A stretch of 64,000 nucleotides of DNA from Sycon ciliatum (lineage: Eukaryota > Porifera > Calcarea > Leucosolenida > Sycettidae), in assembly GCF_964019385.1 (NCBI RefSeq), contig NC_088645.1:43985529-44049528 (forward strand), given 5' to 3'. This document shows, in pieces, positions 41,987-62,501 of this stretch. The translations under genes and the position numbers were made by a program. Below the pieces are notes generated by a model. That model was not told the DNA's origin, searched no databases, and worked only from the letters and a program-made list of their open reading frames with translations. Within the stretch, counting starts at the first letter, position 1. Each line of letters begins with the position of its first letter.

Positions 41987-42140
41987 TAGTAGTAGTAGTA
42001 GTAGTAGTAGTAGTAGTAGTAGTAGTAGTAGTAGTAGTAGTAGTAGTAGTAGTAGTAGTAGTAGTAGTAGTAGTAGTAGTAGTAGTAGTAGTAGTAGTAG
42101 TAGTAGTAGTAGTAGTAGTAGTAGTAGTACTAGTAGTAGT
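41987..42140. repeat. (TAG)n array segment 1
   Basis: Perfect TAG units on the plus strand with one TAC/CTAG interruption near 42129. Confidence 0.97.
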
Positions 42141-42266
42141 TCTCGCTACCTTCTCTGATTATCGATTTTGAATTGCCTTCATCATTGTTTTGCTTTGAAT
42201 CTCTTTTTCGTTTTTGTTCCTTTTTCATATTTATAACTTCGGGTTCTATCAAATAAAGATTTTGAC
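42141..42266 (+). mobile_element. 3'-end fragment of a TAG-associated retrotransposon
   Basis: A 126-bp island with AATAAA at 42252-42257, nine nucleotides before TAG repeats resume. It is AT-rich 3'-UTR-like sequence without coding content, fitting an extremely 5'-truncated plus-strand insertion. Confidence 0.65.
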
Positions 42267-42726
42267 TAGTAGTAGTAGTAGTAGTAGTAGTAGTAGTAGT
42301 AGTAGTAGTAGTAGTAGTAGTAGTAGTAGTAGTAGTAGTAGTAGTAGTAGTAGTAGTAGTAGTAGTAGTAGTAGTAGTAGTAGTAGTAGTAGTAGTAGTA
42401 GTAGTAGTAGTAGTAGTAGTAGTAGTAGTAGTAGTAGTAGTAGTAGTAGTAGTAGTAGTAGTAGTAGTAGTAGTAGTAGTAGTAGTAGTAGTAGTAGTAG
42501 TAGTAGTAGTAGTAGTAGTAGTAGTAGTAGTAGTAGTAGTAGTAGTAGTAGTAGTAGTAGTAGTAGTAGTAGTAGTAGTAGTAGTAGTAGTAGTAGTAGT
42601 AGTAGTAGTAGTAGTAGTAGTAGTAGTAGTAGTAGTAGTAGTAGTAGTAGTAGTAGTAGTAGTAGTAGTAGTAGTAGTAGTAGTAGTAGTAGTAGTAGTA
42701 GTAGTAGTAGTAGTAGTAGTAGTAGT
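42267..42726. repeat. (TAG)n array segment 2
   Basis: About 150 perfect TAG units. Confidence 0.97.
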
Positions 42727-43023
42727 CACATCCTTTATTGCTGAACCCACAAATAATTGTGATACAAATTGTAAACCATCCGAGGAAGAAGAGAAAGCCA
42801 TTAAAAATAAAAAAAATAAAACAAAAAAGGTTATTGTACCATGCCAAACGGCTATTATTAAGTCATGTACCAATTGTAATACATGACGTAGTATAGTAGT
42901 CAAGCACCTACAAAATACTTTGCAGGATAATATTTAAATTGCCTAGCATGCCTACAAATCCGCAGAGCATGCCAATGTTAAATAGGCCAACATATGAATA
43001 CCGAAGGCGGTTACATGGACAGA
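42727..43023 (-). mobile_element. Minus-strand 3'-end fragment of a TAG-associated retrotransposon
   Basis: Read on the minus strand, AATAAA (complement of 42734-42739) stands seven nucleotides before the array. The remaining sequence is non-coding. Its far edge is a GGTTACATGGACAGAAG block that is repeated at 43067-43083. Confidence 0.6.
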
Positions 43024-61200: not shown

Positions 61201-61739
61201 GTGTTGTTTGCGATGTCGAGATCGAGCCACCGCTGATGCCGCTGGGTGGTGAAGCCGTCTCTGGGGGCTCAGCTGACGGTGCTCGTGTGGATATACGGGC
61301 TCGTGGCTTCTGGACCAGGCAGCAAAACGCCTTTTTTGATGTACGGGTCACGCACCCAAGGCCGTCTTTGCTGTCTGGACCAGAAGTGTCGAGGCAGTTA
61401 TCCCAACACGAGCGTCAGAAGAAACGTCAGTATTCCGATCGAATCAACCAGGTGGATCGAGGATCGTTCACTCCGCTTGTTTTCGCCACCAGTGGACAGT
61501 GTGCTCCCGAATGTGGCATCTTCCTCAAGACCCTCGCAACACAACTGCACCATAAGAACTCGGACATACCGTATCGTCTCATCATCAGCCACTTGCGCTC
61601 GAGAATCAGTCTATCTCTGATGCGGTGGCAGATTACTTGCTTCCGGGGGTCACGTGCATCATACCTACGCAGTGGATCCGGCATTGGCCGACATTGCTTT
61701 GTAACGGAGTGCCGTACATTGGCTCATATGCCGCGCTGA
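58275..61739 (+). CDS. RT-endonuclease polyprotein of D (1154 codons open, probably 5' partial)
   Basis: Numbering from the codon at 58275: residues about 6-40 are cysteine-rich (CCSCSKKTGTCGACSC, then CCFNCYPGQVGRCKN), a likely zinc-binding N-terminus. About 45-165 is a Ser/Ala/Pro linker. Next come WQRNLFIIPFGDEGRRFVKE, AFAWSAVVIACHLILQRPF, fingers LIPLDKQPGVRPIAIGEVFR, motif A LLVDASNAFNSLNRA (Asp 550), motif B REGTCQGDPLAMAFYA, motif C YADDD (636-640), thumb, NKSDFRDALCLRYG, knuckle CVCGQDMSVHHALTC (939-953), and nuclease core VDIRARGFWTRQQNAFFD (Asp 1006 and 1022). There is no ATG upstream of the cysteine block in frame; the frame closes at a TAG of the array, so the true start was lost or lies in another form. 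Confidence 0.92.
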   Translation, partial: SSAGPCCSCSKKTGTCGACSCNRDGRCCFNCYPGQVGRCKNFGNLALHDVGGSEVPQGLSAGDPPAWSGRRVQPSRSGESAAGRTGGVPREVRATLVSRPPSSAAERSGAAPAPEVAGSSQSSVSATAVPCGESLRVDLSVPACSGMVPDCAAAPSLVGASADPTAASRVPASAAPTSVGPGSSRQPQFVDLPPEKCDSPEPDGFWSLPTDDIIILMDKTHAEIVKWQRNLFIIPFGDEGRRFVKELARLIGLFSGGTRDGAFAWSAVVIACHLILQRPFVVSNASDNKKSLRKRLDWWMCGDMAALLREARCIQAHLPRSTPGKTAANGLDDVEFAKMVYRDRIGTAAHYLEDDGGGGVLPLDKIVGGKSVLELLRDKHPVPADAEPEILLDDEATVQENVLFDSITPAQIRKTCMIMKGAAGPSGLDSAAWRRMASMYTSASDDLCSALARAAKRLCTEAIEPRDLRSFLAARLIPLDKQPGVRPIAIGEVFRRVIGKVVMSVIERDVAAVTAPHQLCVGVPSACEVGVQALTGLYDRETTQGILLVDASNAFNSLNRAAALHNIPRICPAAGRIFINTYQADIPLYLNGGEVIYSREGTCQGDPLAMAFYALATVPLASRLSRRLPSTSQIWYADDDAAAGELLPLRGYWDCIVEEGPRYGYHPNAMKTVLLVRPHLMERAQEVFAGTDVRIRSDGVRYLGGAIGDQQFRENFVKSRVEELSTLVRRLAGLAVTQPQAAFRVFSASLQSRWTYLQRAVFVDPVLYTPLDDVINKHLLPALTGHPLAADGVLRQLFAMPVRNGGLAIRIGSLRAEAEYLLCRTSIMPMVDCVLTGAVDGPDAIDGPVADIIAASRGLATQARRERRAQHNAALEEIRPALTDEQRLLVDVAGDGGVSTWLVTPPLASFPLTIFNKSDFRDALCLRYGLPLDGISLSCVCGQDMSVHHALTCPSGGYPTQRHNELRDLLADALASVVCDVEIEPPLMPLGGEAVSGGSADGARVDIRARGFWTRQQNAFFDVRVTHPRPSLLSGPEVSRQLSQHERQKKRQYSDRINQVDRGSFTPLVFATSGQCAPECGIFLKTLATQLHHKNSDIPYRLIISHLRSRISLSLMRWQITCFRGSRASYLRSGSGIGRHCFVTECRTLAHMPR

Positions 61740-62090
61740 CGGGCATCAATGGACTTGCCATAATATTGTCATTGGTTTCATTCTGTCTCAGAGTGTTCTG
61801 TTGTATTTGTTTTCGTTTTAAAAGCGTTTGAGCGGTTGGGTGAATGGAAACGTCACCGTACTGGTAGTAGCGATGCTTGGATGGTGTTTGCGGGTTTGCT
61901 CTTTGTTTTTGTATTCCCTAGTTGGCTTGATTCTTTTATTTTATTTTATTTTCTGATTGGATTTTCCTATTTATTTGATTTGATTTTTGCAAATTTCTTG
62001 AATGGTTTTGTCACCATTGCTTTTCTTGCTTGCGCTTTTCAGTTTCTTCTTTCTGATACCCGGTTTGTTTTCAAATAAAGGCGAAGTTCA
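58275..62090 (+). mobile_element. Retrotransposon D, plus strand, most complete copy
   Basis: About 3.8 kb between TAG arrays. One continuous open frame reaches from the array edge to 61739, then a T-rich 3' UTR of about 350 bp with AATAAA at 62074-62079, eleven nucleotides before TAG repeats. It is the only copy here with the cysteine-rich N-terminus. Confidence 0.92.
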
Positions 62091-62501
62091 GTAGTAGTAG
62101 TAGTAGTAGTAGTAGTAGTAGTAGTAGTAGTAGTAGTAGTAGTAGTAGTAGTAGTAGTAGTAGTAGTAGTAGTAGTAGTAGTAGTAGTAGTAGTAGTAGT
62201 AGTAGTAGTAGTAGTAGTAGTAGTAGTAGTAGTAGTAGTAGTAGTAGTAGTAGTAGTAGTAGTAGTAGTAGTAGTAGTAGTAGTAGTAGTAGTAGTAGTA
62301 GTAGTAGTAGTAGTAGTAGTAGTAGTAGTAGTAGTAGTAGTAGTAGTAGTAGTAGTAGTAGTAGTAGTAGTAGTAGTAGTAGTAGTAGTAGTAGTAGTAG
62401 TAGTAGTAGTAGTAGTAGTAGTAGTAGTAGTAGTAGTAGTAGTAGTAGTAGTAGTAGTAGTAGTAGTAGTAGTAGTAGTAGTAGTAGTAGTAGTAGTAGT
62501 A
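62091..62501. repeat. (TAG)n array segment 12
   Basis: About 137 units. Confidence 0.97.

Follow-up and report, generated by a model that had tools for sequence, protein, structure and literature searches.

A (TAG)n array that was probably reused as an insertion target by diverged RLE-type non-LTR retrotransposons in both orientations

The window analysed in our study, a stretch of 64,000 nucleotides, contains a long TAG microsatellite that is interrupted by retroelement-like inserts lying on both strands. This locus raises the question of whether the repeat existed first and was invaded by the elements, or whether it was produced together with them. The choice of target and its change in RLE retrotransposons is an open question. 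Several lineages on one repeat, with a readable rule for the junctions (the T^A step, described below), would, if true, provide a natural enzyme series for the determinants of site and orientation (protein versus RNA). A harmless repeat that serves as a safe landing place is also relevant to the coexistence of element and host, and to tools for site-directed insertion. We consider it likely that a long (TAG)n array was present first and was then reused as a target by at least five diverged single-ORF RLE non-LTR lineages. Without support from the wider genome, the array would be one unusual repeat locus.

The TAG array and its inserts

The array extended from about 41,986 to 62,501 and was found to read TAG on the plus strand in every tract. 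Counting runs of at least four TAG units, it contained 15 perfect runs with a summed length of 4,692 bp, or 13 plus-strand runs once neighbours less than 60 bp apart were merged; the same tracts were recovered with Tandem Repeats Finder. The longest perfect tracts reached 549 bp. On the opposite strand, a single CTA run of 12 bp was found in the 64-kb window, at 29,694. The preliminary description had claimed a plus-strand TAG reading for every tract, which was borne out in 15/15 perfect runs. It had counted about twelve tracts totalling 4.8 kb; the tracts are real, but their sum is 4.7 kb and a few of them are interrupted, by a C at 42,130, by 7 bp at 43,619 and by (CAGTAG)n at 47,180-47,300, respectively. 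Slippage after insertion can lengthen TAG tracts, and the original array may have been shorter. A perfect (GTG)40 tract (41869-41987) directly abuts the start of the array; its unit differs from TAG by one base, and judging from this likeness one of the two may be derived from the other.

Between the TAG tracts, 11 retroelement-like inserts and one TIR element were found, and the inserts in the array amounted to about 17 kb. Five retroelement-like inserts were on the minus strand (m1, A1, A2, B, and B') and six on the plus strand (f1, f2, C, g, D, and E). The array and its inserts are as follows.

41986..62501, plus strand: (TAG)n array, 15 perfect tracts, 4.7 kb, with inserts between them
42140..42266, plus strand: f1, 127 bp, ending with AATAAA and 9 nt, then TAG
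42727..43023, minus strand: m1, 297 bp, ending with AATAAA and 7 nt, then ACT repeat
44019..47137, minus strand: A1, 5'-truncated non-LTR retrotransposon of the RLE type, inverted internally at about 45080-45407
47718..47830, plus strand: f2, 113 bp, ending with AATAAA and 10 nt
48279..51295, minus strand: A2, second copy of family A, 5' end longer than that of A1, lacking about 467 bp internally at about 50261
51345..52807, minus strand: B, 5'-truncated, with an open 3' coding part of 413 aa containing the RLE
53357..56230, plus strand: C, 5'-truncated, RT and RLE open
56610..56962, no strand assigned: TIR element, 353 bp, with inverted ends (CAGTTGTGGCAAG...) matching at 94.9% over 39 bp
57493..57645, plus strand: g, 153 bp, with a 14-nt 3' motif, TTTGCCCGTAAAAG, in common with family A in opposite orientation
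57826..58161, minus strand: B', a 336-bp copy of the family B 3' end, 96.4% identical to B, with another truncation point
58276..62089, plus strand: D, nearly full-length, with a single reading frame that stays open between the 5' junction and 61739
62502..64000, plus strand: E, with one in-frame stop, 3' end beyond the window

Seven of the inserts (A1, A2, B, B', C, D, and E) represent coding families of five lineages, and they lie on the strands that had been claimed for them. The short inserts f1 (+), m1 (-), f2 (+), and g (+) are additions to those seven. They are non-coding and, since their termini resemble those of the other inserts, we interpret them as the 3' ends of additional families; f1 is probably a 5'-truncated 3' UTR. 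At the 5' end of m1 (43010-43081), two copies of GTTACATGGACAGA enclose a 44-bp AGT tract, a short duplication of the junction together with the repeat. The TAG tract upstream of C was in frame with its ORF and would add 183 valines. The TIR element sits between TA dinucleotides of the TAG repeat, and we take it to be a Tc1-like MITE.

The two copies of family A were 97.5-99.4% identical across four main aligned blocks. Compared with A2, the inverted region of A1 contained one block in both orientations and had lost another, and 78-bp tandem repeats were found in this region. The presence of families A and B in two copies each, together with the fact that long perfect repeats are hard to assemble, might suggest that one composite unit was multiplied or that separate TAG-flanked loci were joined in the assembly. 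We regard this as very improbable, since the copies have different truncation points, internal rearrangements and neighbours, and five families are present. Even with wrongly joined tracts, each insert would keep TAG on both sides. The 5' truncation points differed within both the A1/A2 and the B/B' pair, which points to separate insertions and not to one copied block.

Outside the array, pieces of an APE-type LINE were found at 15,825-17,768 on the plus strand, comprising two ORFs with Exo_endo_phos_2 and RVT_1 matches below the curated cut-off, and a (TAGTG)17.6 tract was present upstream of them (14336-14423). An ORF on the minus strand (21973-22701) had no Pfam match; its end block presumably resembles the PD-(D/E)XK-like regions at the C-terminus of other retroelement proteins. 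Two exon-like ORFs on the minus strand (18042-18509 and 25979-26722) contained nidogen-like and laminin-EGF domains and are, from their sequence, probable host extracellular-matrix genes.

Proteins and lineages of the inserts

Matches to RVT_1 were found in A1, C, and D with E-values of 2.1e-5 to 5e-6, below the curated cut-off, and above the cut-off in the relatives P0010, P0048, and P0090 (3/8 scanned). Eight ORFs of the array were scanned with Pfam and showed no family except RVT_1. The whole-protein model had a mean pLDDT of 82 and the top seven Foldseek matches were all R2 structures, followed by LINE-1, with an identity of 15-16% to the R2 structures. In VIA-align the whole model fitted LINE-1 and R2 equally, which leaves the C-terminal part as the basis of the R2 likeness. 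The C-terminal model matched seven R2 structures with a probability of 1.00; it was the best of five models made (pLDDT 79) and the only one above 65. The positions of C.C..H...C, RH and D...FD.R, which correspond to a C-terminal zinc knuckle and a PD-(D/E)XK-like endonuclease, were invariant or nearly so. An APE endonuclease before the RT was looked for in eight relatives, and no Exo_endo_phos match was found at E <= 1. The non-LTR-type RT was located in a single long ORF, as in the RLE-encoding R2 group, and the constant 3' ends with variable 5' truncation would be traces of target-primed reverse transcription (TPRT). By their sequence and the predicted structures, the seven coding inserts are RLE-encoding (R2-group) non-LTR retrotransposons with an R2-like RT and a predicted C-terminal RLE.

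In a tree built from the C-terminal region (92 rows), each of the lineages A, B, C, D, and E had its nearest neighbours among database proteins of its own, not among the other four. Deep branching in this tree was poorly supported; E entered with 168 residues and A1 with 206, and a long-branch warning was given for P0150. A division of the lineages into a plus clade (C, D, and E) and a minus clade (A and B) was considered and dropped, support being lacking (59/33). Relatives with about 40% identity were found in corals and hydrozoans (Porites and Clytia) among the matches listed.

The ORF of D contained an N-terminal cluster of eight cysteines followed by RT and RLE, and its start lies a few codons inside the P0004 ORF. 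The eight-cysteine cluster was present in 32 of the 120 relatives listed and had no Pfam match in the eight scanned; it is a candidate target-binding domain. Across the N-terminal 119 residues of P0005, its identity to P0025 was 86.6%.

Flanks, junctions and 3' ends

All of the completely visible retroelement-like inserts (10/10) had TAG on both flanks, and the left flank of E, the only one inside the window, was also TAG. The share of TAG in the insert-free window was 10.0%, and the probability that ten of ten random insertions fall in TAG is about 1e-10, an approximate value that takes no account of selection or of subsequent tract expansion. The claim that the TAG array is older and was invaded repeatedly by diverged RLE lineages in both orientations is supported at this locus by the flanks, by the separate truncations and by the tree. 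The evidence for insertion into TAG comes from one locus, and the use of both strands was seen between families and not within one.

In positions 1-41,860 no tblastn match to the family relatives was obtained at E <= 1e-3 (queries P0001-P0245); the (CA)59, (CT)54, and (GTG)40 tracts there are therefore also without a family member. The elements could have inserted anywhere and survived only in a gene-free repeat, and this would agree with the ~17 kb of inserts tolerated by the array and with the fragments of likely host genes (laminin EGF, nidogen-like) in the flank. Such survival would, however, be expected to retain other transposon classes as well, whereas, with eight ORFs of the array scanned against Pfam, one TIR element was the only other class recognised there (f1, m1, f2, and g, without coding sequence, are not typable for certain) and the APE-type LINE pieces of the flank are absent from it. 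Survival alone also predicts no preferred junction phase, and we consider this explanation unlikely.

The junction phase was examined at 21 visible junctions, not all of which are independent. Relative to the T^A step of the repeat, 14 junctions were exact, seven were one base beyond and none was two bases beyond. In a model with a fixed cutting point and a 1/4 probability of a chance match at each base, T^A reached a log-likelihood of -15.4, compared with -23.1 in the absence of any preference and -44.5 for each of the other two steps. The chi-square test against uniform phase gave p = 0.0009, and p = 0.00125 when each family contributed a single 3' end (19 junctions). The 3' junctions alone gave p = 0.025 and the 5' junctions alone p = 0.035. 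We used this count per junction in place of one summary value for the phase shift (TSD mod 3). Seven of the ten inserts left the array in frame, and A1, A2, and g shifted it. In family A all four junctions were one base off T^A, and this family alone could equally fit a 2-bp TA (or 3n+2) stagger. T^A is the sole self-complementary step of TAG/CTA, which would explain why both strands serve as target. This junction rule is an addition to the preliminary description.

AATAAA was found 7-10 nt before the repeat at seven of the ten visible 3' ends, the expectation being 0.011 per end from its density in 1-41,860. The 3' ends of A1, A2, and g contained the shared motif 9-10 nt before the repeat and no AATAAA there. 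The motif lies in opposite orientation relative to TAG in family A and in g, and no alignment between the two was found beyond it at E <= 1e-3; by sequence, a kinship of A and g with opposite orientations is hinted at. No poly(A) was found at the ten visible 3' junctions, and when the terminal 70 nt of eight 3' ends were folded as RNA, no common structure was evident by eye.

Each family might also make a simple-repeat tail of its own during reverse transcription, AGT in plus and ACT in minus families, so that the tracts would be tails. The preliminary description had argued against tails on the ground that they would change strand along with their elements. This logic is valid within a family; it does not hold across families, whose tails could differ. 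The two families with two copies in the window, A and B, each occurred in one orientation only, so the plus families could own an AGT tail and the minus families an ACT tail. The orientation of the 3' repeat relative to the element was constant within A and B, and simple-repeat 3' ends are known in RTE elements, according to passages of PMC2887409. Against such tails, the 5' side was also TAG in all 11 inserts, and the uniform direction would arise by chance with a probability of 2^-9 (10 ends) or 2^-7 (8 distinct ends). Perfect tracts of up to 549 bp seem, in our judgement, long for a tail. We hold the tracts quite unlikely to be tails.

Returning to the array as a pre-existing target, we infer a course of nicking and priming from the inserts, their homology, flanks, 5' truncations and junction phases. 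The RLE of each element would nick the array at a T^A step, and the nicked strand would prime reverse transcription from the 3' end of the element RNA (TPRT as in R2). The T^A site occupies one and the same position of the two strands; a nick in the CTA strand would give a plus insert and a nick in the TAG strand a minus insert. A second-strand cut at the same T^A step would keep the frame of the repeat, as in 7/10 inserts. More speculatively, with AATAAA 7-10 nt before the junction, the mRNA would end just inside the flanking repeat. It would then carry a few AGU or ACU units that could pair with one nicked strand only, and this pairing may keep new copies of a family in the direction of the copy from which they derive. 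We put forward tentatively, and with some doubt, that the array was a shared platform on which the RLE nicks the self-complementary TpA with both strands equal, and on which an inherited read-through RNA tail locks the orientation of a family.

Beyond the window, no relatives were found in genome contigs (two scans) or in viral contigs (protein profile), searches from which records near the genome of the window were possibly excluded. A scan of viral contigs for 39-base TAG runs gave 43 loci, none with a tblastn match to the 11 family proteins tried. Valine or serine runs, which would mark repeat-fused starts, were found among the 120 + 120 homologues listed only in P0077 (six serines at position 5) and P0046 (nine serines at position 23); these runs are short and come with no codons for judging. 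All 40 homologue N-termini inspected start with methionine, mostly inside the element, and are uninformative either way. The relative P0154 had a non-repeat N-terminus, which hints that not all copies start in TAG, although the gene prediction is possibly misleading. Among the relatives, P0036, P0044, and P0126 are perhaps on one contig and P0006 and P0010 on another, an arrangement that suggests, or is at least compatible with, clusters.

Comparison with known target-specific elements

The preliminary description had presented a TAG target shared by several diverged lineages as something not yet described. The novelty is smaller than stated, since microsatellite targeting by RLE elements is in print for several lineages and types of repeat, but a TAG motif shared by several lineages is perhaps new. 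In the open-access literature searched (titles and abstract openings; 'TAG repeat' with 'non-LTR retrotransposon'), TAG was not found as a target of non-LTR elements. The TAG motif, its use by several lineages and the T^A rule may be new.

Dong and R4/Dong are RLE elements found in (TAA)n, as stated in passages of PMC7998251, PMC2887409 and PMC3636483. The inserts of our study resemble Dong in the single ORF with RT and RLE, and in a trinucleotide microsatellite target that contains a TA step. The target is TAA there and TAG here, and the (TAA)n or rDNA target that defines R4/Dong was not the one seen at this locus. The N-terminus of R4/Dong is described in part of PMC7998251 as SANT/Myb-like and without zinc fingers, a domain detected only by HHpred, whereas the relatives here contain the eight-cysteine cluster (32/120 listed). 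A Myb match in Pfam was found in 0/8 relatives, which is to be read beside the visibility of the published R4/Dong domain to HHpred only. Togen is found in (TG)n, and some HERO families have microsatellite targets (excerpts of PMC4640811); these are likewise RLE elements aimed at simple repeats, set beside our inserts by description only, and the motif of Togen differs.

The likeness to R2 consists in the order of the domains (RT, then a C-terminal zinc knuckle and RLE by structure) and in 5'-truncated copies with constant 3' ends. The target of R2 is the 28S rDNA, whereas the target here is (TAG)n; the identity is 15-16% and the N-terminus is unlike. The R2 clade proper is defined by insertion in 28S rDNA, and the inserts seen here lie elsewhere.

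SART1 and TRAS, which are of the APE type, insert into telomeric (TTAGG)n, and it has been proposed that initiation is guided by the 3' end of the RNA annealing to this repeat (PMC7265360). In SART1, an AGG end lifted accurate starts from 36% to 76% (PMC7265360). This effect is the nearest published support for the proposed guiding of orientation by RNA ends in the repeat. SART1 and TRAS belong to the R1 clade and have a poly(A) tail, whereas the elements here have an RLE and no poly(A); what they have in common with the inserts of the TAG array is insertion in a fixed phase of a tandem repeat.
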